Assembly: GCF_007747655.1 (NCBI RefSeq)
Contig: NZ_CP036274.1
Coordinates: forward strand, 930,001-994,000
DNA from: Anatilimnocola aggregata
GTDB taxonomy: Bacteria > Planctomycetota > Planctomycetia > Pirellulales > Pirellulaceae
Direction of reading: 5' to 3'
Length of the DNA stretch: 64,000 nucleotides
Shown here piece by piece: positions 1-54,506 of this stretch. The notes beneath the pieces are model-generated. The model was given only the letters and a program-made list of their open reading frames with translations, had not been told where the DNA came from and did not search any database. A program made the translations under genes and the position numbers. Numbering within the stretch: the first letter of the stretch is position 1; every line of letters begins with the position of its first letter.

Positions 1-3000
1 GTGCCGAAGGCGACGACCTGGCCCCCCCCTTCGCCCGCATCGGGGCCCATGTCGATCATCCAGTCGCAGCTCTTGATAATGTCGAGATTGTGCTCGATCA
101 GCACGACCGTGTTGCCGAGGTCGACGAGCCGCTGCAGCACTTCGAGCAGCTTGGCGAGATCGTCGAAGTGCAAGCCGGTCGTTGGTTCGTCGAGCAGGTA
201 GAGGGTGCGGCCCGTATCGGGGCGGGAGAGTTCCGCCGCGAGTTTCACGCGCTGAGCTTCACCGCCTGAGAGCGTCGGCGCGGGCTGGCCGAGCGTGAGA
301 TAATCGAGACCGACGTCGCACAAGGTTTGCATGACGCGGCGAATCTTCGGAATGTTCTCGAACAATCGCAACGCATCGCCGCAGGTCATATCGAGCACAT
401 CGCTGATCGAATGCCCGTGGAACATGACCGCCAGCGTTTCGGGATTGTAACGCTTGCCGCGGCAAACATCGCACTCGACCCACACGTCGGGCAGAAAGTG
501 CATCTCAATCCGCTTCTGGCCATTTCCCTCGCAAGCCTCGCAGCGACCGCCGGGAACATTAAAGCTGAAGCGTCGGCCCGAATAGCCACGCACCTTTGCC
601 TCGGGCAATTGTGAGAAGAGCGTGCGGATCAGTTCGAAGCATCCCGTGTAAGTCGCCGGGTTCGAAGTCGGCGAGTTGCCGAGCGGCTGTTGATCGACCC
701 GAATCACCTTGTTGATATGCTCCAGCCCGTGAATTGCATCGTGCTGGCCGGGGATGACCGACGCGCGATGCAACTGCCGCGCGATAGCCGCATAGAGCAC
801 ATCTTCGATGAGCGTGCTCTTGCCGCTACCGCTGGGGCCGGTAACAGCCGTCAAAGTACCGAGTGGAATCCTGGCCGTGACATTTCGCAGGTTGTTGTGC
901 CGCGCGCCAACCACTTCAATCCACGCTTGTTGGAGTTCCGGCTTCAGCCGGTCTGGTTCACCGTTGTTTGCTGGAACCGCAGTCAGCGGAGCCTTTTTCT
1001 TCTTACTCAATTTGGCCGGAGGAGCAGGCTCACCATTGGCGTCGACAGCAGGCAATGCCTGGCCAATGCGCCGAGTCTTGGGAACTGGAATCGCCTTCCG
1101 ATTACTCAGGTACGGACCCGTGACCGAGCGAGGCTGGCCATCGAGTTCGCTCGGATGAGCGCTGGCGACGATCTCGCCGCCGAGACGACCGGCCCGCGGA
1201 CCAAAGTCGAGCAAGTGATCGCAATGCTCGATCACTTCGCGATCGTGTTCGACAACGATCAGCGTATTGCCAAGATCGCGCAACTTGTGGAGTGCGCCGA
1301 GCAAGCGGGTGTTATCGCGCGGGTGCAAACCAATGGTCGGTTCGTCCAGCACATACAGCACGCCGCACAGACCGCTGCCGAGTTGACTCGCCAGCCGAAT
1401 GCGCTGGGCTTCACCATTTGACAAGGTCGCGGCGGGACGCGAGAGAGACAGATAGTCGAGGCCGACATCGAGCAGAAACTGCAGGCGGCCGGTGATTTCA
1501 CGCAGCAGTTCGCCGGCGATCTTCCGTTCGCGCTCGCTGAGGTTCCAATTGGCGATGGCCGTTTGCAGATGGCTGAGCGGCATCCGCCCGAGTTCGCCAA
1601 TCGTTTGATTGCGAAAGCGGACCGCCGACGCATCGTCCCGCAAGCGACTGCCGCCGCAGGTCGAGCATTCGACGTCGGCCACCAGTTGTTCCAGCCGAAT
1701 GCGCAGCAGCGGCGAAAGCTTCGAAGCTTCTTCGAGGGCCGGATAGAGCCCCTTGAATTGAAACCGGAAGAGCGGCTTCACCTTCTTGCCATTCGCACCG
1801 GGGGGCAACACGTCGAACCACTGTTCTTCCGCTCCATACAGGACCGTGCGGCGCTGACGATGCGGCAACTGATCGAACGGCACATCGAGCGGCACGCCCG
1901 TTCCCTGACCGAGCGCTTCAAGCATTGCCCGGGCATACGAGATTTGCAGATTCGGCCACAGAGCAAGTGCGCCTTCCGCCAGCGTGAGCTTGGGGTCCGA
2001 GAGGAGAGCAGCGGGATTGGCGCCGGTCTGCACGCCGAGCCCTTCGCACGACTGGCACCAACCGAGCGGGCTATTGAACGAAAAACTGTGCGGCGTGAGG
2101 GGCTCGAAGCTGCGGCCGCATTCGTGGCAAGCCAAGTGCTGGCTGTGGGCGACGGTCCGCCACTTGGGCTCGGGAACATCGTCCTGAGCATAGGCGACGT
2201 GCATCACCCCCTTGCCGAGATTCAGCGCCTGTTCGATGCTCCCCGCGATGCGCGAGCGGGCTTCTTCTTTGACGGTGATGCGGTCGAGCACCACTTCGAC
2301 CTTGTGCTTGCGGCGGCGATCGATTTCCGGAACCGCGTCGAGCGTGTAGGACTGGTTGTTGATCCGGACGCGGTTGTAACCTTTCGTGCGCAGATCTTCC
2401 CAGAGCGTGGCGTATTGCTGGCCGACATCGATTTCGACGGGGGCCATCAGATACAACTTCGCGCCCGGCGTTTCAGCGAGGATCGTATCGACGACCTGAT
2501 CGGCTGACTGTGTACCAACGGGAATCTCGCACGTGGGGCAATACAACTGCCCGAGTCGCGCCATGAGAATGCGCAGGTAGTCGTAAATCTCGGTGACGGT
2601 GCCGACAGTCGAGCGCGGCGTGTGACCGAGATTCTTCTGCTCGATGGCGATGGCCGGCGAGAGGCCGTCGATATGATCGACGATGGGCTTTTGCATCTGC
2701 GCGACGAATTGCCGGGCATAGCTGCTCAAGCTTTCGACGTATCGTCGCTGCCCTTCGGCATAGATGGTGTCCATTGCCAGCGAGCTTTTGCCGCTGCCGC
2801 TGGGACCGCAGAAGACGGTCATTTTGTCGCGTTCGATCGAGGCGCTGACGTCTTTGAGATTGTGCTGCCTGGCACCGCGGACGGTGATATGCGTGGCTAA
2901 GTGAGGCGGGCCTTGCGTGACCGGCAGTTCGACCAATTCACCATTCTTCTTGGACTTCTTCTTGCCGTTCGCTTTTTCTTCGCTGGGATGGAGCGCTGCG

Positions 3001-6000
3001 TAAGCCTTCTCGCGGGCTTCTTTGGCCGCGGAGCCGTCGAGAACTCGCTTGAGAGCGCGGCCCGTATAAGAACCCTCGACCTTGACGATCTCTTCCGGCG
3101 TGCCCGCCGCCAGAAGTTGACCGCCGGCAGCACCACCTTCGGGCCCCATGTCGATGACCCAGTCGGCCGTCTTGATGACGTCGAGATTGTGCTCGACGAC
3201 CAGGACCGTATTGCCGGCATCCACAAAGTTGTGCAGCACCTTCAGCAGCAGTTGAATATCGGCGAAGTGCAAACCGGTCGTCGGCTCGTCGAGCAGGTAG
3301 AGCGTCTTGCCGGTGCTCTTCTTCACGAGTTCACGAGCCAGCTTGATGCGCTGGGCTTCGCCACCGCTGAGGGTCGGCGAAGGCTGGCCGAGCTTGATGT
3401 AGTCGAGACCGACGTCGTGCAACGTCTTCAGGCGATGGTGAATGTTCGGCACATTCTCGAACAGGCCGAGTAGTTGCTGAACGTCCATTTCCAGGACGTC
3501 GGCAATCGACTTGTCCTTAAAGCGAACTTGCAGCGTTTCCCGGCTGAAACGCTTGCCTTCGCAGACGGGGCATGTGACCCACACGTCGGCGAGAAAATCC
3601 ATCTCGAGCCGCGTGCTGCCGTTTCCTTCGCAGGCTTCGCAGCGCCCACCTTCCACATTAAAGCTGAAGCGGCCGGGCTTAAAGCCGCGGCGTTTCGCTT
3701 CGGGCATTTGCGTGAAAAGATCGCGAATTTCGTCGAACAATTTGATGTAAGTGCCGGGATTGCTGCGTGGTGTGCGACCGATGGGAGTTTGATCGATGGC
3801 GATCAGCTTATCGAGATTCTCCATCCCTTCGATGGCCCGATGCTTGCCGGGATTTCCGTCACCTTTGTTCAAATCGCGATGCAGGGTCTCGACCAGAATA
3901 TCGCTGATGAGCGAGCTCTTGCCGGAGCCTGAGACGCCTGTGACGCAGACGAATGCGCCGAGGGGAATCTCGACGTCGACATTCTTCAGGTTGTTGTGTT
4001 CCGCGCCGAGAATCTTCAGGCTCTTGTCGGTACGCGGGCGTCGTTGCTTGGGAACGGCGATTTCGAGTTCGCCGGAAAGGTACTTGCCCGTGACGCTCCT
4101 CTCAGCCTTGAGGACCTCACCGGGGCGGCCTTGCGCAACGAGTTCACCGCCGCGCACGCCGGGACCAGGGCCGAAGTCGAGAATCTGATCGGCGGCCCAG
4201 ATCGTGTCTTCGTCGTGCTCGACAACGATGACGGTGTTACCCATGTCGCGCAGGCGGCGGAGCGTGGAAAGCAGGCGATCGTTGTCGCGCGGGTGCAGGC
4301 CGATCGACGGTTCGTCGAGAATATAGAGCACGCCGACGAGCCCGCTGCCAATTTGACCAGCGAGCCGAATGCGCTGGGACTCACCACCGGAGAGCGTTGG
4401 TGCGGTGCGGTCGAGCGAGAGATAATCGAGACCAACGTCGACCAGAAAGCCCAGCCGGGTCCGAATTTCCTTCAGCACTTCGGCCGCGATGATCTGCTGC
4501 GTATCGGTCAATTGCAGGTTCTGAAAAAAGGCCGAAGCGTCGCTGACAGCCAGGTTGCAGATTTGCGGCAGCGTGCGGCTCAGTTGTTCGCCGACTTGAT
4601 CGCTTTGCGTGGTCACGCGCACCGAGCGGGCCTGGGGAACAAGTCGCTCGCCTTGGCAGGTCGGGCAGCCGACCATGCTCATGTATTTTTCGAGCTGCTT
4701 CTGCTGCATCTTGCTCTTGCTGTTGCGATGCTTGCCCGCGAACTCGGGGATGATCCCTTCGTACTTGCCGCCGTACATCATCGGCGCTTGGCCACCGCGC
4801 CAAGTGAAGGTGATGTGCTCCTTGCCGGTGCCGTACAACAAGACGTGCTGCTGCTCTTTCGTCAGCTTGTTCCAGGGCGTTTCGAGTAGCGTATCTTCTT
4901 TCCACTTGTGCTTCCGTTCGAGCGTGTCGGCCACTCCCTGATAGATATGCCGCCGCCAGCGCCCCAGTTCGTGCCAGGGGCCGATCAATTCGATGGCCCC
5001 TTCTTTGAAGGTCAGCTTGGGATTCGGCACCAGCAGTTCTGGCGACAGGCTGTACATCACGCCGAGGCCGTCGCAATCGGGGCACATCCCCTGCGGGCTA
5101 TTAAAGCTGAAGAGCTGCGGGCTCGGCGGTTCGAACGACAGGCCGCAGGTCGTGCAGGCGTAGTCGGACGAGAAAAGCAAATCGCCCGCGCGAGCGGCGC
5201 GACGCTTCCGCTTGCTTGATTTGGCCGAAGTCTCTTCCTCGGCGACTTCGGGCTCCGCTTCTTCGTCCTGCGGAACGGGAACCGCCTTTGTTTCGCCCGC
5301 CGCCAGGTCGAGCGCGACAATCAGATTGCCGCCGCCCATTTTCAGAGCCGTTTCGACGGCTTCGCTCAAGCGCGGGCGAACATCGGTGCGCAGCGTGAGA
5401 CGGTCGACCACCACTTCGATATCGTGCCGCATCTGCCGATCGAGCGAGATGCTGTCATTCAGTTGCACGACGGTTCCATCGACCCGCGCGCGGACGAAGC
5501 CCTGCTTCAGCAAGTCTTCGAACAGGTCTTTGTATTCACCCTTTTGCTGGCGAATGAGAGGCGCGAGGACATTCAGCTTGGTCCCCTCGGGGAGTTGCAG
5601 AATGCGGGCCAGAATCTCTTCGCGCGATTGGGCGGTAATCGGCTGCTGGCACTTGGGGCAGTGCCCCTGGCCGACGCGGGCAAAGAGGACGCGCAGGTAG
5701 TCGTAGATTTCGGTGATCGTGCCGACGGTCGAGCGCGGGTTATTACCGCTGCTTTTTTGGCTGATCGAAATCGATGGGCTCAAGCCGCCGATGAAGTCGA
5801 CATCGGGCTTGGGCATTTGGCCCAAGAAATGTCGCGCATAGCTAGACAGGCTCTCGACATAGCGCCGCTGCCCTTCGGCATAGAGCGTATCGAACGCCAG
5901 ACTACTTTTTCCGCTGCCGGAAACGCCGGTGAGGCAGATGAGCTGATTTCGCGGCAAAACGAGGGAAACATCGCGCAGGTTATGCTCGCGAGCCCCTTTG

Positions 6001-21638: not shown

Positions 21639-21652
21639 GAAGTAGGCTAACT

Positions 21653-21693
21653 TGGGTGCCAATTGTTTTGCACAGCAAAACGACAGGCACCCA
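21653..21693 (+). terminator. Long imperfect hairpin after the GTG-start gene
   Basis: TGGGTGCC and GGCACCCA form an outer 8-bp stem. An inner TTTTG/CAAAA stem closes on loop CACAG. The right arm is followed by TTTTC, so it could terminate transcription. Equally it could be a REP-like element, as it opens a stretch dense in repeats. Confidence 0.45.
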
Positions 21694-21710
21694 TTTTCAA
21701 GTCTCAAACT

Positions 21711-21858
21711 AGTAGTCCGACTAGCGCTCAACGTCATCTGGTTAACCCACGTGCTTGCGCGGGTGAACTGCAAAACAAGCGAACTGCCAGTTCAACGGCC
21801 GCAAGCGGCCCGGTTAACCAAGTTTGGCAACCCGACATCCATCGGTAGCTCAGCCACT
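21711..21858 (-). repeat. Repeat family I, copy A (about 150 bp, GGTTAACC type)
   Basis: Read on the minus strand, this copy matches the plus strand at 41626-41775. The shared blocks are GGTTAACCGGGCCGCTTGCG through CCGTTGAACTG, TTTTGCAG, ACCCGCGCAAG...GTGGGTTAACCA, and a terminal CGCTAGTCGnACnACT. The internal GGGCCGCTTGCGGCC and CCCGCGCAAGCnCGTGGG blocks are hairpin-forming. No coding content is evident. The ends are related inverted repeats, as in miniature mobile elements. Confidence 0.7.
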
Positions 21859-21892
21859 AGCCCACCATCAGCCTGTGACCGAATGCCGGGAG

Positions 21893-21996
21893 GTTTATCA
21901 ACACCCCCCTTTTGCGTGCATCACATTCAAGCCATTCTGCGGCAACGATTTGCGCCCTATTTGCTCAACCTGAAATCATCCTATTTGTTGATTAAC
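21893..21996 (+). repeat. 104-bp MITE-like element, copy 1
   Basis: It begins GTTTATCAACA and ends TGTTGATTAAC, terminal inverted repeats matching at 10 of 11 positions. The interior (TTTTGCGTGCATC, AAATCATCCT) matches the reverse complement of 54129-54232, which has exactly the same length. It is non-coding and too small to carry a transposase. This size and structure fit a MITE mobilised by an enzyme encoded elsewhere. Confidence 0.75.
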
Positions 21997-22014
21997 TGGT
22001 TGCTCTGGCCACTC

Positions 22015-22192
22015 ATCTGCCCGGGGTCGGGAGGCTTTTCGGGCGAGTTGACCCTGTCTTTAGCCGCTCAACGACGGCCTGAGAATCCTCCTGAGCCCAG
22101 TCGAGTGAATGCCACAGTCGCGCTTCAGTTGGTTTTTCGGGCCAACCGTTAACGAAAAGCGGGCTGTCCAAACTCGCCCAAAAACCAACGCC
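22015..22192 (+). repeat. Repeat family II, copy 1 (about 178 bp)
   Basis: It is similar over its whole length to 54294-54472 in the same orientation. Shared blocks include ATCTGCCCGGGGTCGGGAGG, TTAGCCGCTCAACGACGGCC (one change) and AAAACCAACGCC. On the minus strand both copies can encode VERLKTGST-PK-LPTPGR, but small indels break the frame upstream, so I treat it as a non-coding repeat. It starts 19 nt after the 104-bp element. Confidence 0.7.
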
Positions 22193-22370
22193 GCCCCAGG
22201 TCGCACTGGCGTGACTGATTACCAGAAACCGTTCCTCGCGCTGGCGCGAATTTTCCCCGCCGCGTAGACACGCATCTTCCACCAAGTTGTCAAACAGCCG
22301 CTTAATTTATGACGACGTATTGCGCACTTGTCAATCATTTGCACAATATATTTTGGCAAAGCCCCACCTT

Positions 22371-22420
22371 GGTCAACCGGGCCGCTTGCGGCCGTTGAAC
22401 TGCTGGTCCCAGTTGTTTGG
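22371..22420 (+). repeat. Repeat family I, partial copy C
   Basis: GGTCAACCGGGCCGCTTGCG followed by GCCGTTGAACTGCTGGTCC matches the left half of the copy at 41626-41775 almost exactly. The right half is missing, so this is a fragment or a separately spread half-element. The bases between it and the 178-bp repeat (22193-22370) show nothing I can name. Confidence 0.6.
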
Positions 22421-22452
22421 CTCGAAGATAGTGATCTGATTTTCTCAGCGAG

Positions 22453-22701
22453 TCATGGCGGAGGCAGTTTGGAAGACAGCCCAATTCCAATAATTACTAC
22501 CCCCATGATGAGCAGCAACACTCCGCCGATCCGCCCCCAGGTTGCTGAGACGTGAAAATTGTCCGCTCTCTTTTCGAAGTTAAGTGCTCTCAAGAAATCT
22601 TCGGTGGGCTGGAATTTCTTCCCAGCCATTGTCAGGCCTATTGAGCCAACAAACAGAAAAATCAAACCCACGAAAACGATTTGGAAGTTCATATAGGCCA
22701 T
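22453..22701 (-). CDS. Small two-TM membrane protein (82 aa)
   Basis: From ATG 22701 the protein begins MAYMNFQIVFVGLIFLFVGS and ends with a second hydrophobic segment (GGVLLLIMGVVIIGIGL). A polar stretch with FQPTEDFLRALNFEKRADNF lies between. The frame is open further upstream but that part is low-complexity and crosses the conserved 22699-22730 block, so it is unlikely to be translated. It is divergent from the small membrane-protein gene at 22767. No function recognised. Confidence 0.6.
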   Translation of the reverse strand: MAYMNFQIVFVGLIFLFVGSIGLTMAGKKFQPTEDFLRALNFEKRADNFHVSATWGRIGGVLLLIMGVVIIGIGLSSKLPPP

Positions 22702-22730
22702 TCTACTCGCGCAAGAAAAAGCCCCGCCAG
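22699..22730. promoter_or_regulatory. Conserved block in a divergent small-gene pair, copy 1
   Basis: CATTCTACTCGCGCAAGAAA followed by AAGCCCCGCCAG matches 52873-52904 at 29 of 32 positions. On the minus strand it reads ...GCGGGGCTTTTT...GTAGAATG, where TAGAAT could be a -10 box. Both copies lie between a minus-strand small gene and a plus-strand member of the LYVGSY family. Confidence 0.5.
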
Positions 22731-22766
22731 AGTGACAGCGCTGAACGGCCACCTTAGAAACCACCC

Positions 22767-22982
22767 ATGCCCACCACCCGCTCAGCCGCGCCGATCTTCG
22801 CAGCTTTTTTGCTGCTGCTGCCGGTGCTGTATTCGGGGAGCTATTTCGCCTTGGTAGCACCCGAGCGAGAAGGGTTCACGCATCATGGTGCGACTTATCC
22901 GTATCGCTACGGCGGCGCTCTGGCAGCAAGCGTGTATTGGCCGCTGGAGCAAATCGACCGCCGGCTAAGAGCCCAGGTTTAG
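22767..22982 (+). CDS. LYVGSY-family small membrane protein, copy 1 (71 aa)
   Basis: Starts MPTTRSAAPIFAAFLLLLPV and has a single TM helix (about residues 8-28) ending in LYSGSYFALV. A short region follows with PYRYGG, then the C-terminal signature VYWPLEQIDRRLR. It is shorter than the other copies. It shares the frame TRSAAP-FAA-LLLLP-LY-GSY and Y-PLE-DR-R with the copies at 23353, 23679, 52418 and 52941. Function unknown; probably a single-pass protein with an extracytoplasmic tail. Confidence 0.65.
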   Translation: MPTTRSAAPIFAAFLLLLPVLYSGSYFALVAPEREGFTHHGATYPYRYGGALAASVYWPLEQIDRRLRAQV

Positions 22983-23103
22983 GAGGATTGATTTTGGAGT
23001 TCGGTTTCCCTTGACTTGTCCCCTAGCCTCGGCAACTCTAGCAGGGCTTTCGCATAAGCGGTTAGAATCGATGGCGTTATTCAATGCGAAGGAAAGAGTA
23101 TTC

Positions 23104-23343
23104 ATGCAAGATTTCGTCACCGATTTAGTGATCAGAATCGGGGTAAAGCCCATCTGTTTTCTTGCGCTTCTTGCCCTCGGTTTAGCGATGCAGGCAGGTT
23201 ATTCTCGGCTGCGTCGTCCCGCTAAGGATGCCGAGTTTGTTGGGAATTGGCGAGTGCCTGCGGGGCGCTGGATTTTAGGCGTAATCCTACTCGTCGTTTT
23301 CATCTATCTCGGTTATGTCATTTCGAGAGACCCATTGCAGTAA
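23104..23343 (+). CDS. Small two-TM membrane protein (79 aa)
   Basis: ATG 23104 is preceded by GGAAAGAG about 7 nt upstream, which decides the start over earlier in-frame codons. The protein has two hydrophobic segments (about 14-28 and 55-73) with a basic loop containing YSRLRRPAKDAEF. It stands 9 nt before the next LYVGSY-family gene and is probably cotranscribed. Not a member of that family and not recognised. Confidence 0.6.
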   Translation: MQDFVTDLVIRIGVKPICFLALLALGLAMQAGYSRLRRPAKDAEFVGNWRVPAGRWILGVILLVVFIYLGYVISRDPLQ

Positions 23344-23352
23344 GTACTCGAA

Positions 23353-23607
23353 ATGACCAATCGCGTGCCACTTATCATAGCCATCGTTTTGCTGCTGCTG
23401 CCGGTGCTCTATGTAGGGAGCTATCTGGCCAATGTGCGCCCCAGGCCTGTGCTAGTTCCCTTCACGCTTCCGTCGGGCAAGGTTGCCCGCCTAGTCTCGC
23501 ATTACCGATTTGGAATCGAATACTCGGAACGAATCTATTGGCCGCTGGAACAAGTCGACCGCAAGCTACGGCCAAGGGCTTGGGTTGAAAACGAGACAGG
23601 CCCCTGA
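23353..23607 (+). CDS. LYVGSY-family small membrane protein, copy 2 (84 aa)
   Basis: MTNRVPLIIAIVLLLLPVLY opens a single TM helix ending in VGSYLANV. The C-terminal half contains VSHYRFGIEYSERIYWPLEQ and VDRKLRPRAW, the family signature in full. The N-terminus is closest to the copy at 52418 (MTNRAPLIVTIALLLMPVLY). It lies 9 nt after the two-TM gene on the same strand. Confidence 0.68.
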   Translation: MTNRVPLIIAIVLLLLPVLYVGSYLANVRPRPVLVPFTLPSGKVARLVSHYRFGIEYSERIYWPLEQVDRKLRPRAWVENETGP

Positions 23608-23678
23608 TCAGCCAAGTCACTCATTCTTGCCCACCCGCTAGATTCGCGAGTGCGAAGCCCCAAGCTTAAAATGTCCCA

Positions 23679-23951
23679 ATGCCCTCTACCCGCTCAGCCG
23701 CGCCGATCTTCGCAGCCGTATTGCTGCTCCTGCCGATGCTGTACGTGGGGAGCTATCTCGTATCGGTGCTTCCTCAGGGGAAGGTCGTTGTTTGTCCGGT
23801 AGTTGGTAGGCCGGGCCATAGTACTGCTCGCTTCACGCACTACCGCTGGGGATACTAACTACCGACTTCGCTATACTCGCCACTAGAAGAGATTGACCGC
23901 CAAATCCGTCCTGGTGCGTGGGGCAAGCCACCATCGCGATTGCATCCGTGA
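23679..23951 (+). pseudogene. LYVGSY-family gene, copy 3, broken by an in-frame stop
   Basis: From ATG 23679 the frame reads MPSTRSAAPIFAAVLLLLPM, LYVGSYLVSV and on to THYRWGY, then hits TAA at 23856-23858. In the same frame it continues LPTSLYSPLEEIDRQIRPGA to TGA at 23949. The C-terminal signature is therefore intact but cut off by a single nonsense codon. No frameshift is needed. It may be a recent pseudogene, a truncated but functional 59-aa form, or a sequencing error. Confidence 0.7.
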
Positions 23952-24087
23952 CCTGACTAGTCCGGCAAAACCGGACACTACCCCGCTGACGCGCTTCTTG
24001 AATTTGGCCGGTCGATCTGCGAGACTGCGTGCGATTATCACTTGGCCGCCTCCTCTCGAATTTTTTCAGTGGCGGAAGGAGAGATCC

Positions 24088-41625: not shown

Positions 41626-41775
41626 AGTAGTCCGACCACCGATATTGGTCAGCCTGCTGTCCGTCGGTTAACCGGGCCGCTTGCGGCCGTTGAACTGCTG
41701 GTCCAGTCATTTTGCAGATTACCCGCGCAAGCGCGTGGGTTAACCATATGACATGGATCGCTAGTCGAACCACTA
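41626..41775 (+). repeat. Repeat family I, copy B (about 150 bp)
   Basis: It begins AGTAGTCCGACC and ends GCTAGTCGAACCACT, related inverted ends (9 of 11). Between them are GGTTAACCGGGCCGCTTGCG, ATTTTGCAG and ACCCGCGCAAGCGCGTGGGT, shared with copy A at 21711-21858 in the opposite orientation. Its right end overlaps the menC stop codon. It separates cheX and menC. Confidence 0.72.
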
Positions 41776-42897
41776 AGTTAAGCTCGCGCGCTGCACCGTC
41801 ACGCGACTCAAGCGATCGCTATTTGGCTCGGGTAGTTCGCGCGGCGCTCGGACGCCGGGAAGTCCCTCGCGCGTGCGAATCAGTTCCAGCGGCGGATCGC
41901 TCAGATCCTGATGATAAAAGCGACTGCTGGGAAAAATATCGGCCGGATAAGTGAAGTTTGGCAGCATCGCCAGCGAGACGCATAGCGCGGCGCCCGCGGC
42001 ACTCTCCAGCATGCCACCCACCCAGCACGGAATGCCTGCCCGCTGGAATTCATTGTGCAACTGCACCGCGTTCGTCAGACCGCCGACGCGCCCCGGCTTG
42101 ATGTTCGCATAGCGGCAACTTCCCAGCGCGATGGCCTGCTGCGCTTGCCGCAAGGTAATCAGGCTTTCGTCGAGACAGACAGGGGTCCGAATCGAACGCT
42201 GCAGCTGGGCATGGTCGACCAGGTCGTCGTGCTGCAACGGTTGCTCGATCATTGCCAGGTTCAGTTCATCGACCTGTTGAAAGAGGGGCAAGTCGCTGAG
42301 GCGATAGCCACTGTTGCAATCGATGTGGATGGGATGCGTGGGATGGCGCTCGCGCACGGCGCGCAACATGGGAAGGTCCCAGCCCGGCCGGAACTTGAGC
42401 TTGATGCGCGGAAAGCGATCTTTGACAGCTGCATCAATGCACGGCAGCAGTTCATCGACCGTATCGAGGACGCCGAAATCAGCACCAACGGCCACTTCAT
42501 CGCGCGGCGTGCAGCCGGCGTATGCTCCTAACAATTCATGCACCGGTTTGTTCTGCACGCGGCTAGCCAGGCTCCACCAGGCGGTATCGAGCACTGCCTT
42601 GGCGAAGGGGTTGCCTTTAAAGTGACCGATGCGGCGCTGCAGATCTTCGCCACTGGTGACATCCTGCCCAAGCAGTGCCGGCGCGAGCCAATCGCGGCAG
42701 ACGGCAAAGATGCCGCCGCCCCATTCCGGGCTGTAGCAAGGAGCGGCGAGCGGAGAACTTTCTCCCCAACCCACCAGCGAGCCACTCGTCATTCGGCAGA
42801 GGACGGCATGAATCGAAGCGTCTTCGCCATAGGCAGTGCGCCACGGCGAGATCAGCGGCATGGCAACGTGAAACAAATCGATCCGGTCGATCTTCAT
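41773..42897 (-). CDS. menC: o-Succinylbenzoate synthase (enolase superfamily)
   Basis: Protein of 374 residues of the muconate-lactonising subgroup, acting in menaquinone synthesis. Active-site motifs are KLKFRPGWD (KxK), HIDCNSGYRLSD, MIEQPLQHDD, VCLDES and NIKPGRVGGLTNA, giving the Asp/Glu/Asp metal ligands and two lysines. N-acylamino-acid racemase activity cannot be excluded, as these enzymes are often promiscuous. The final residues (RASLT) and the TAG stop are formed at the edge of a repeat element, so the C-terminus may have been altered by its insertion. Confidence 0.82.
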   Translation of the reverse strand: MKIDRIDLFHVAMPLISPWRTAYGEDASIHAVLCRMTSGSLVGWGESSPLAAPCYSPEWGGGIFAVCRDWLAPALLGQDVTSGEDLQRRIGHFKGNPFAKAVLDTAWWSLASRVQNKPVHELLGAYAGCTPRDEVAVGADFGVLDTVDELLPCIDAAVKDRFPRIKLKFRPGWDLPMLRAVRERHPTHPIHIDCNSGYRLSDLPLFQQVDELNLAMIEQPLQHDDLVDHAQLQRSIRTPVCLDESLITLRQAQQAIALGSCRYANIKPGRVGGLTNAVQLHNEFQRAGIPCWVGGMLESAAGAALCVSLAMLPNFTYPADIFPSSRFYHQDLSDPPLELIRTREGLPGVRAPRELPEPNSDRLSRVTVQRASLT

Positions 42898-52417: not shown

Positions 52418-52711
52418 TCACGGGTTGGGCGTCCGTTTTGAATATGCATGGAGCGGACGAATCCCATTTTCGTGCAATTGATACTCCCACTCCCACATGG
52501 TTGGCCGAATTCTGCGATCTAGCTTCTCCACTGGGAAATACACATACCCTGCCCAAGCATTTCCCAAGCGGTAATGCCTGGGCCAGTGCATTGAGCCATC
52601 AATCAACTGTTGGTACTCCCCAGGCGTCACCAGTGCGAAATAGCTCCCGACATACAGCACCGGCATCAGCAGTAAGGCGATGGTGACGATGAGTGGTGCG
52701 CGGTTGGTCAT
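52418..52711 (-). CDS. LYVGSY-family small membrane protein, copy 4 (97 aa)
   Basis: MTNRAPLIVTIALLLMPVLY followed by VGSYFALV forms the single TM helix and junction. The tail has RHYRLGNAWAGYVYFPVEKL and DRRIRP, the family signature with Pro-Val in place of Pro-Leu. It is close to copy 2 at its N-terminus. Its ATG lies 3 nt after the stop of the 50-aa gene upstream, so the two are cotranscribed on the minus strand. Confidence 0.68.
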   Translation of the reverse strand: MTNRAPLIVTIALLLMPVLYVGSYFALVTPGEYQQLIDGSMHWPRHYRLGNAWAGYVYFPVEKLDRRIRPTMWEWEYQLHENGIRPLHAYSKRTPNP

Positions 52712-52714
52712 GGC

Positions 52715-52867
52715 TCAATAACGCACAAATCGATTGATGGCGGGAAGAACACCCACAAGAATAGTCCACGCAGTAACGATTATTAAAACCACAATCAACC
52801 AAGTAAATGGCTTCTTGGGCTGAAATGGTTGGCTCGGCTGTGGCGATTCGTAAGGGTTCTGGTTCAT
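52715..52867 (-). CDS. Very small single-TM protein (50 aa, NPYESP start)
   Basis: The frame reads MNQNPYESPQPSQPFQPKKP and then a TM helix (FTWLIVVLIIVTAWTILVGV) to a TGA at 52715. A start of the type NPYESP is, in my experience, common among short planctomycete membrane proteins. The stop and the next ATG are separated by only 3 nt. It occupies the same position relative to the conserved 32-bp block as the 82-aa gene at 22453-22701, but the two proteins are not alike. Confidence 0.6.
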   Translation of the reverse strand: MNQNPYESPQPSQPFQPKKPFTWLIVVLIIVTAWTILVGVLPAINRFVRY

Positions 52868-52872
52868 CGCCC

Positions 52873-52904
52873 CATTCTACCCGCGCACGAAAAAGCCCCG
52901 CTAG
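52873..52904. promoter_or_regulatory. Conserved block in a divergent small-gene pair, copy 2
   Basis: CATTCTACCCGCGCACGAAA followed by AAGCCCCGCTAG matches 22699-22730 at 29 of 32 positions and sits in the same divergent context. A further TAGAAT occurs at about 52930, close to the plus-strand ATG. Confidence 0.5.
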
Positions 52905-52940: not shown

Positions 52941-53213
52941 ATGTCCACCACCCGCTCAGCCGCACCGAACTTCGCAGCCGTCTTGCTGATGCTGCCAATG
53001 CTATACGCAGGGAGCTATCTGGCACTGGTAAGGCCGGTAGACGATGTCCACGGATGCTTCTACCAGTATCCTCGAATTGGCACCGACTATGGCAGGATGA
53101 TAATTTGGCCACTACAGCGAATCGATATTAAGGTCCGCCCTGTGGAATGTGTATACGAGCGCATGGATGAACGTGAGTGGAATGGCCAGTGGAACAAGCC
53201 AGCACTGCCGTGA
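52941..53213 (+). CDS. LYVGSY-family small membrane protein, copy 5 (90 aa)
   Basis: MSTTRSAAPNFAAVLLMLPM followed by LYAGSYLALV gives the TM helix. The tail (YQYPRIGTDYGRMIIWPLQR, then IDIKVRP) keeps the Trp-Pro-Leu and Arg-Pro positions but loses the DR pair (IDIK). It groups with copies 1 and 3 by its N-terminus. Function unknown. Confidence 0.67.
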   Translation: MSTTRSAAPNFAAVLLMLPMLYAGSYLALVRPVDDVHGCFYQYPRIGTDYGRMIIWPLQRIDIKVRPVECVYERMDEREWNGQWNKPALP

Positions 53214-53327: not shown

Positions 53328-53930
53328 ATGACCAAGCGCGACAATCACTACGAGTTGGCTTTTGAAGCCTATTTGCAGCGGCGACAAATTCCGTATGTAG
53401 CCGTCGACGAGACCCGCCGCAGTGCGGCGGGCTTGCCGACCGGCGGCCAGACGGCCAATGGAACTGGAACACGTGGGCACGGCTCGCCCACGCTCAAGAG
53501 TCTCGACTTTATCGTCTCGCCGCGCTTGATCGCGGCCGATTCCCCCGGTTCGTGGCTCGTCGATATCAAAGGGCGCCGCTTTCCCACCGGCAGCCGCAAG
53601 CAGTATTGGAAGAACTGGTCGACCGCCGACGAACTGCGCAGCCTGGCCCACTGGGAATCGATTTTCGCGGGGCGCTTTCACGGACTGCTCGTGTTTGCCT
53701 ACAACGTGATTGGCGATCGGGCGCCCCTCCCTGCCGACCAGCTGTTCGAATTCCGGAGTGGGGTCTATGCCTTTCTCGGTATCCGCCTGGATCACTACGC
53801 GGGTTGGTCCCGGACTCTCTCGCCCCGCTGGCAAACCGTCAGCATGCCCACGCCGCGCTTTCGCGCGCTGGCCCGTCCCACCGATGAGATCTTCGGCATC
53901 TCGCCCACTGGCCAGACGCAGGTTGCTTAA
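53328..53930 (+). CDS. HYExAFE-family protein, possible PD-(D/E)xK-like fold
   Basis: Protein of 200 residues beginning MTKRDNHYELAFEAYLQRRQ, which matches the HYExAFE family of planctomycetes named after this motif. Beyond the motif, SLDFIV followed about 20 residues later by WLVDIKGRRF has the spacing of an acidic residue plus DxK (PD-(D/E)xK nuclease core), with the N-terminal Glu of HYELAFE as a third candidate. That fold is inference. No signal peptide. The next 950 bp are repeats and non-coding. Confidence 0.8.
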   Translation: MTKRDNHYELAFEAYLQRRQIPYVAVDETRRSAAGLPTGGQTANGTGTRGHGSPTLKSLDFIVSPRLIAADSPGSWLVDIKGRRFPTGSRKQYWKNWSTADELRSLAHWESIFAGRFHGLLVFAYNVIGDRAPLPADQLFEFRSGVYAFLGIRLDHYAGWSRTLSPRWQTVSMPTPRFRALARPTDEIFGISPTGQTQVA

Positions 53931-54128
53931 GTTCCCGCTTGGCCACAACAGCGAGACAGGACTTATCGATAAGTGCTTGACAATTATTAATTAACTGACA
54001 ATAATATAAGCCGCTCTGTTGGCAACCTGGTGGAAGGAGCGCGCCTGCGCGTTGGCAGTGGTTCGCGCGGCGCGGAATCGCTGCTTCGCACTCCGGGGAA
54101 TTCGCCAGGGGTGAAATCAGCCGGAGAC

Positions 54129-54232
54129 GTTTATCAACAAAGAGGATGATTTTGGAATTGCAAAGTTGAGCGCAATTCGTTGCTGCGAAACAGCTTGCCT
54201 GCGATGCACGCAAAAGGGGGGTGTTGATTAAC
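54129..54232 (-). repeat. 104-bp MITE-like element, copy 2
   Basis: Ends GTTTATCAACA and TGTTGATTAAC are identical to those at 21893-21996, and the interior matches that copy when reversed, over exactly the same length. The flanks differ at once outside the inverted repeats, so the borders are well defined. Non-coding. Confidence 0.75.
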
Positions 54233-54257
54233 TGATGAACGGTTCTGATAAACCTCG

Positions 54258-54506
54258 GGTTGCAGCGACAGCACCCCTTCACGCTGGCAAACGATCTGCC
54301 CGGGGTCGGGAGGTTTTTCGGGGGAGTTGACCCCGTCTTCAGCCGCTCAACGACGGCCCGAAAATCCTCCTGCACCCAAACGAGCGAATCCCGCCACAAC
54401 GCTTCAGGTTGGTGTTTTGGGCCGACTCTTAATTGCAAACTGGCTGCCCGACCTCGCCCGAAAACCAACGCCAGTCCCCTGGCGTGAGCGGTTGCAGCGA
54501 CAGCAC
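54258..54506 (+). repeat. Repeat family II, copy 2, flanked by 17-bp direct repeats
   Basis: The 178-bp repeat occupies 54294-54472. It is bracketed by perfect 17-bp direct repeats GGTTGCAGCGACAGCAC at 54258-54274 and 54490-54506. Such direct repeats can be target duplications or recombination scars; 17 bp is long for a simple target duplication. The copy at 22015-22192 has no such flanks. The stretch 53931-54128 before the MITE contains no gene. Confidence 0.68.

Follow-up and report, generated by a model that had tools for sequence, protein, structure and literature searches.

The 64,000-nucleotide stretch of the Anatilimnocola aggregata genome analysed here (the window; positions 930001-994000 of a single-contig genome of 9,007,740 bases) contains two islands, at 21.6-24.0 kb and 52.4-54.5 kb of the window, with several kinds of element in common: genes of a family characterised by the motif LYVGSY, a 32-bp block located between divergent small genes, a 104-bp element with inverted arms, which belongs to a longer unit named B, and a 178-bp repeat, named C. 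An earlier note on this DNA had interpreted this resemblance as possibly a single expanding module. The analysis presented here favours another reading, according to which the islands probably contain two layers instead of one module, that is, an older family formed by the LYVGSY genes and the block, and a set of species-specific repeats, nested in one another, that occupy the same gaps. For the most part, the islands reflect ordinary turnover of short repeats, with one unusual repeat family among them.

The first layer, found in both genomes of the genus, would consist of the LYVGSY genes together with the block, acting as a divergent promoter-like element. The block would precede a leftward pair, made up of a gene for one of various small membrane proteins and a type-1 LYVGSY gene, and sometimes also a type-2 LYVGSY gene to its right. 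The second layer, not found in the congener, would comprise short non-autonomous repeats scattered in intergenic DNA. These are A, a two-palindrome repeat; B, which may be moved by an enzyme acting on its arms; and C, for whose propagation in trans a tyrosine transposase, like that encoded at 1.217 Mb, is probably responsible. It is proposed that these repeats have inserted within or next to each other and have piled up in weakly constrained gaps, those surrounding LYVGSY genes included, and that the two islands look alike because of this accumulation.

LYVGSY genes and the 32-bp block

LYVGSY genes are present in both islands, as had been claimed. There are five in the window, three in 22.7-23.9 kb (island 1) and two in 52.4-53.2 kb (island 2), and they are arranged around the block as follows.

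22453-22692, minus strand: 79-aa small membrane protein, leftward of the block of island 1; FtsX-like match of 23.4 bits, under the Pfam cut-off of 25.5
22700-22730, no strand: 32-bp block of island 1, promoter-like, between divergent small genes; zero mismatches to the pattern, GTAGAAT 7 nt ahead of the leftward ATG
22767-22982, plus strand: LYVGSY gene, type 2 (MPTTRSAAPIF...), 71 aa, island 1
23104-23343, plus strand: small open reading frame (ORF) of island 1, its stop 9 bp ahead of the next LYVGSY gene
23353-23607, plus strand: LYVGSY gene, type 1 (MTNRVPLII...), 84 aa, island 1
23679-23858, plus strand: LYVGSY gene of island 1, type 2, with one early in-frame TAA; family similarity runs on to 23924
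52418-52711, minus strand: LYVGSY gene, type 1, second gene of the leftward pair of island 2
52715-52867, minus strand: 50-aa small membrane protein of NPYESP type, first gene of the leftward pair of island 2
52874-52904, no strand: 32-bp block of island 2, matching the pattern
52941-53213, plus strand: LYVGSY gene, type 2, 90 aa, island 2

LYVGSY is a paralogous family that is nearly restricted to the genus. The A. aggregata genome gives 39 matches at E ≤ 0.01, and 36 of these also pass E ≤ 1e-8. In a search of 60 genomes (A. aggregata, one congener and 58 other relatives) there were 38 matches in A. aggregata, 51 in the congener and four in the remaining 58, these four falling in three genomes from other genera of the same taxonomic family. 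The encoded small membrane proteins have a hydrophobic N-terminal segment, a variable middle and a conserved C-terminus, YR...FWPLEQIDRKxRP. Some of the A. aggregata copies contain stops. When the ratio of nonsynonymous to synonymous substitution (dN/dS) was calculated with the 38 stop-free copies among 43 taken from A. aggregata and the congener, keeping those of the 703 pairs with dS of 0.1-1.5, the medians were 0.30 for the N-terminal block (564 pairs), 0.36 for the C-terminal block (200 pairs) and 0.41 for all columns (348 pairs), and these values indicate purifying selection. The four window members compared with Pfam gave no match, and with NCBIfam the same four gave only TIGR03061 for one of them, at an E value of 0.097, far under the cut-off. 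No literature was found joining at least three of the subjects Planctomycetes, extragenic palindromes, small membrane proteins and paralogy, in searches that did not include the LYVGSY motif itself.

The block is located between divergent small genes in both islands, as previously described, and its two copies differ at three positions of the matched 31-mer. A pattern of 31 bases, with up to three mismatches allowed (as in the patterns for the B ends used below), has 23 matches in A. aggregata, six in the congener and none in the control; 11 other genomes gave no match. Block and LYVGSY genes go together: a block lies no more than 1 kb away from 16 of the 28 LYVGSY clusters, against a mean of 0.12 when positions are shifted around the circular genome (1000 shifts, in which positions may fall anywhere, intergenic or not; the same null is used throughout).

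The arrangement around the 18 A. aggregata blocks in the loci fetched is regular. On the leftward side, an ATG lies 6-7 nt past a GTAGAAT-like box in 16 of them; the first genes include six of NPYESP type and four with a start like MxFxxR/QxL, and in eight cases a type-1 LYVGSY gene begins no more than 10 nt after this first gene. On the rightward side, six of the 18 have a type-2 LYVGSY gene whose start is 36-40 nt from the block. Judging from this spacing, the block may be a divergent promoter-like element with leaderless starts; the GTAGAAT box, separated from the first ATG by 6-7 nt, is probably a leaderless -10 box.

Architecture and copies of unit B

22226-22345, minus strand: leader and promoter-like part of B unit 1 (island 1), with TTGACA at 22334-22329; parted from its 104-bp end by repeat C
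21893-21996, minus strand: 104-bp end of B unit 1, arms GTTAATCAACA / TGTTGATAAAC
53977-54233, plus strand: complete B unit 2 (island 2), with TTGACA at 53977-53982, a -10-like AATAAT at 54000-54005, the leader, and the 104-bp end at 54129-54232

The 104-bp element had been described as having terminal inverted repeats and being inverted between the islands. Both points stand, since its arms of 11 bp read GTTWATCAACA/TGTTGATWAAC (in a wider form, GTTWWTCAACA) and the two copies are mutually inverted and 78% complementary. However, the alignment of uninterrupted copies reveals that it is only one end of a unit of about 280 bp. In order, this unit has an A-rich stretch that is short and weakly conserved, then a TTGACA-N17-nATAAT-like box, next a leader containing TTTGGCAACCTGGTGGAAG, and last the 104 bp, whose length is exact in 27 of 31 copies and 102-106 in the others. 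From TTGACA to the end of B there are 253-297 bases in 16 copies.

Two patterns drawn from the ends of B, M1 and M2, have 75 and 64 matches genome-wide, against two in the reversed control for M1 and none in the control for M2; some of the 75 M1 matches are not B units, because up to three mismatches were allowed. The copy number in A. aggregata is about 65. Among 62 units anchored on M2, 51 are of type I, with the arms enclosing the 104 bp, and ten of type II, with the ends facing each other, while the remaining one (L172) received no class from the script and is of type II by eye. In most of these 11 type II units the ends face each other across about 72 bp, and three of them contain near-palindromic TGTTGATAAA-N8-9-TTTATCAACA pairs, recognised by eye, which can be read as shaped like the core site of a recombinase. 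The promoter-like box is found in 45 of 53 type I units and the leader motif also in 45 (within 420 bp).

Several observations concern the surroundings of B. A gene for a HYExAFE family protein (NF038001, 9.1e-55) is located at 53328-53930 of the window, directly upstream of B unit 2. At about 8461 kb of the genome (L070), a long array of the 9-bp unit gacagtcaa lies inside a B unit, some 100 bp past the 104-bp part. In L068, L076, L080 and L154 a further common repeat appears downstream of B at varying distances, with 78-81% identity in the pairs listed.

Repeats C and A, nesting, and the Y1 transposase genes

22009-22225, plus strand: repeat C copy 1 (the 178-bp repeat of the earlier note), in island 1, inside B unit 1; ends set by eye, match from about 22015
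54279-54487, plus strand: repeat C copy 2, in island 2, end motif TCACGCTGGC / ...TGGCGTGA; matched part 54294-54472
21709-21860, minus strand: repeat A, a dispersed repeat of about 150 bp with two palindromes, in island 1
22363-22402, plus strand: fragment of repeat A, in island 1

The copies of C in the two islands are 81% identical over 178 bp. They had been placed a short distance beyond the 104-bp element, and this describes island 2, where C starts about 45 bp after the end of B unit 2, but not island 1 (at 951 kb of the genome), where C lies inside the B unit, between the 104-bp end and the leader. The same C-in-B arrangement is present at 1336 and 3644 kb; these two composites have 596 alignment columns in common, with 93% identity, starting no more than 2 bp from the outer end of B and extending past its promoter side. 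Repeat A is likewise found inside B units in L069 and L076, and part of the association of A, B and C is due to this nesting. In island 2, a 17-bp direct repeat, detected by eye, brackets C (54258-54274 and 54490-54506). Another copy of A, 83-85% identical to that of island 1, is located outside both islands, at 41666-41782 of the window.

C is formed by palindromes of about 75-80 bp each, doubled, and its predicted RNA folding energies are -77.9 and -89.9 kcal/mol for the window copies and -48.3 kcal/mol for a flank of a transposase gene, values obtained with no shuffle control. In L014, L089, L090 and L091 a CTGGTCAC-like motif stands ahead of C copies, and C may therefore be part of a longer composite.

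It had also been suggested that an enzyme encoded elsewhere could spread the repeats, and for C this proposal is retained. The genome has seven matches to the Y1 transposase domain (PF01797), and repeated sequence is present on both sides of all seven genes. In L228 (1,217,226-1,217,516 of the genome, the 1.217 Mb gene), C-like repeats at locus positions 909-982, 1132-1210 and 1931-2004 lie on both sides of the ORF at 1210-1980. The flanks match each other in direct orientation (94-95%), each is self-palindromic (about 76%), and they are about 71-78% identical to the dispersed copies of C. The L228 protein matches NF047646, the model of the repetitive extragenic palindrome (REP)-associated tyrosine transposase (RAYT), at 1.1e-18 and 67.6 bits, a score below the curated cut-off (80). 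A second Y1 gene, that of L230, has members of a different dispersed repeat family, F, at its flanks; the protein of this gene matches NF047646 weakly (18.2 bits) and an IS200 model at 19.4 bits. Separately, a short repeat at 927-975 of the window resembles those flanking the Y1 gene in L231 (GTTGGAGTTCCGCCTTTAGGCGG).

For A and B the same proposal is not supported. Neither the B arm, nor M2, nor the core of A was found within 1.5 kb on either side of the seven genes, with one weak leader-like match in L226, and a RAYT as mobiliser of A and B was therefore rejected. The Y1 gene at 558.8 kb has one B unit (at 1.7 kb) and two A copies within 1.7-2.3 kb.

Distribution among relatives

The two layers differ in their distribution. 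The congener contains LYVGSY genes and the block (51 and six matches). The B unit was absent from all 59 relatives, congener included, both by BLAST with the unit, among the at most 12 candidates scored per genome, and by the M2 pattern; an 801-bp query with A, B and C gave no match in 39 relatives by BLAST, among the at most 13 candidates scored per genome. Exact M2 patterns were not found in the GTDB contig collection, from which the A. aggregata genome or a very near one is possibly excluded, nor was B found in viral contigs (exact patterns) or in phages and plasmids (BLAST). This distribution does not support a single expanding module.

Of three loci compared with the congener in search of empty sites, one had both flanks at one place. 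Between the aligned ends, this gap measures 466 bp in the congener and 386 bp in A. aggregata; the B unit is absent from the former, and several other palindromic repeats are seen there by eye. Those palindromes (L219/L225, about 3886.2-3886.7 kb of the congener) are GCACCCTxxxAGGGTGC-like and CCCAGGGT...ACCCTGGG-like, and may represent the congener's own repeat families.

Co-occurrence and alternative explanations

Co-occurrence was calculated with 36 LYVGSY genes in 28 clusters, 68 B units, 22 A copies in 19 clusters, 20 C copies and 23 blocks, the lists of A and C being incomplete, with 40 of 149 and 40 of 68 first-look candidates scored, respectively. The elements co-occur beyond the expectation of the circular-shift null, which is not restricted to intergenic DNA. 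Eight of the 28 LYVGSY clusters have a B unit within 3 kb, against a mean of 1.25, and none of the 1000 shifts reaches eight; two of those eight are the islands of the window, without which the figure is 6/26 (plain arithmetic, with no separate null). Within 1 kb there are three such clusters (mean 0.41, reached in nine of 1000 shifts). The pairing of LYVGSY with C is weak, with no cluster within 1 kb and 2/28 within 3 kb (mean 0.37, 51 of 1000 shifts). Nine of the 19 A clusters have B within 1 kb (mean 0.25), as do six of the 20 C copies (mean 0.29). Among the copies listed, LYVGSY, block, B and C occur together only in the two original islands; at one further locus, 7515-7518 kb, A joins LYVGSY, block and B.

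An explanation that deserves some weight, although we consider it rather improbable, is that the clustering is a by-product of long or gene-poor intergenic regions, where any intergenic feature would co-occur to the same extent. Consistent with it, B is located between predicted genes in 60 of 61 neighbourhoods, the remaining one (of type II) overlapping a low-scoring prediction, and palindromes likewise crowd the congener gap at the single locus compared. Nevertheless, the insertion of C and A directly into B units exceeds mere neighbourhood, and the A-B and C-B pairs no more than 1 kb apart amount to about 20-36 times the mean of the circular shifts.

The original proposal, one mobile module that would carry the LYVGSY genes, the block and the repeats along as joint cargo, is very unlikely, even though all four elements are present in both islands, LYVGSY clusters lie near B more often than under the circular shift, and two B+C composites have 596 columns in common. 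Besides the congener, which has LYVGSY and block with no match to A, B or C, it has to face the facts that the four coincide at only two of 28 LYVGSY clusters and that, for 60 of the 68 B units, the nearest LYVGSY gene is more than 3 kb away. Moreover, the order of the elements differs between the islands, as previously reported, and so do their orientations.

The reading in two layers, for its part, has to accommodate several points that weigh against it. The excesses given above are upper estimates, overstated by some factor, because the null ignores the confinement of the repeats to intergenic DNA and because the lists of A and C are incomplete (40/149 and 40/68 candidates), and they count the two islands that raised the question; in the relatives, in turn, 12 or 13 candidates were scored per genome. 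Neither a transposition event nor a target duplication nor a clean empty site was demonstrated, the one syntenic gap compared being filled with other repeats. The flanks of the RAYT-like gene related to C are direct rather than inverted, and only about 71-78% identical to the dispersed copies, and no enzyme was found for A or B in a search covering the seven Y1 loci.

With the two-layer reading as the preferred one, the islands illustrate that regions with several common elements can arise without being one mobile unit. The genome, with seven repeat-flanked Y1 genes and a B repeat of about 65 copies that was not found in the congener, is suitable for the study of the turnover rate of intergenic repeats. 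In addition, the LYVGSY genes and their block offer small membrane proteins under purifying selection, for which no Pfam or NCBIfam model was found, and whose role is directly testable.

Outside both islands, positions 1-5920 of the window contain an apparent tandem duplication of about 3 kb, with blocks 71-74% identical and spaced 2970-3120 bases.

The nature of B

A tentative proposal, which we regard as possible but doubtful, is that B represents a new, lineage-restricted kind of mobile DNA: a promoter-bearing unit of about 280 bp, whose GTTWWTCAACA arms would be putative recombinase half-sites, existing in two permuted arrangements at about 65 sites in one species, and carrying adjacent DNA from one fixed end.

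The arms behave like DNA recognition sites rather than like an RNA stem, as deduced from their pairing. Among 54 copies, which were themselves selected by GTTWWTCAACA arms, 30 arm pairs are perfect (29 of the common type, and one that owes this to a compensated change); in another 23, position 4 or 5 does not pair. It is accordingly unlikely that B is a dispersed structured small-RNA gene or a regulatory RNA, with promoter, leader and hairpin, instead of mobile DNA. The conservation of the TTGACA-N17-nATAAT-like box and the leader, the nearly constant length of the 104-bp part and the occurrence of the same ends in two arrangements could be expected from such an RNA. Yet two units fold no better than shuffled sequences (z of -0.79 and -0.50), Rfam gives no family, with two miRNA matches far under their gathering scores, and only two of 31 predicted pairs have changed on both sides in an alignment of 15 sequences; furthermore, B is found in one species among 60 genomes. 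A permuted RNA domain, the first impression given by the two arrangements, was discarded on the same arm-pairing statistics.

Finally, a role of the arms (TTATCAACA) in replication control, as dispersed DnaA-box-like sites, can be practically dismissed: each unit has two arms, one base off the consensus TTATCCACA, but the mismatch affects an invariant base, the spacing of the 68 units is random-like (coefficient of variation 0.95 vs 0.98), and the arm bias of their strands is lower than in any of 200 permutations.

Comparison with known systems

B resembles miniature inverted-repeat transposable elements (MITEs) in being small, multicopy and intergenic, and in having 11-bp inverted arms around 104 bp. 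Unlike in MITEs, these arms bound only one end-module of the unit of about 280 bp, the promoter-side boundary is not sharp, and a second arrangement exists in which the same ends face each other. In the flanks of the 68 candidate B places no constant duplication was seen by eye, and no B ends were found in the seven Y1 loci, other transposase families not having been searched. In size and intergenic dispersal the repeats also recall the enterobacterial repeat units RU-1, RU-2 and RU-3, of 127, 168 and 103 bp in the excerpt of PMC2759123, which belong to other bacteria. Integron attC sites were provisionally set aside as a further candidate.

C is close to the repeats associated with RAYT and TIRYT genes (REPtrons, TIRtrons and bacterial interspersed mosaic elements, BIMEs). 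According to excerpts of PMC2817692 and PMC3733652, these genes are flanked by their cognate repeats, and REPs bear a GTAG or CGTC tag at one end (PMC3733652). Like such repeats, relatives of C, and F, flank Y1 genes and also occur as dispersed intergenic palindromes; in the case of C, a RAYT-type Y1 gene is present in the genome, flanked on both sides, and the repeat is palindromic with a predicted hairpin. C departs from the classical forms in size, its doubled palindromes of about 75-80 bp contrasting with the 20-40 bp of REPs in the excerpt of PMC3733652, and in the direct orientation of the L228 flanks, described as inverted for RAYTs in that of PMC2817692. Therefore, from their Y1-flanking copies and the published descriptions of RAYT and TIRYT genes, C and F look like variants of the RAYT-associated kind of repeat; in the excerpt of PMC3733652, REPs are present in Planctomycetes, R. 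baltica having a great number of these transposase genes with repeats at their flanks.

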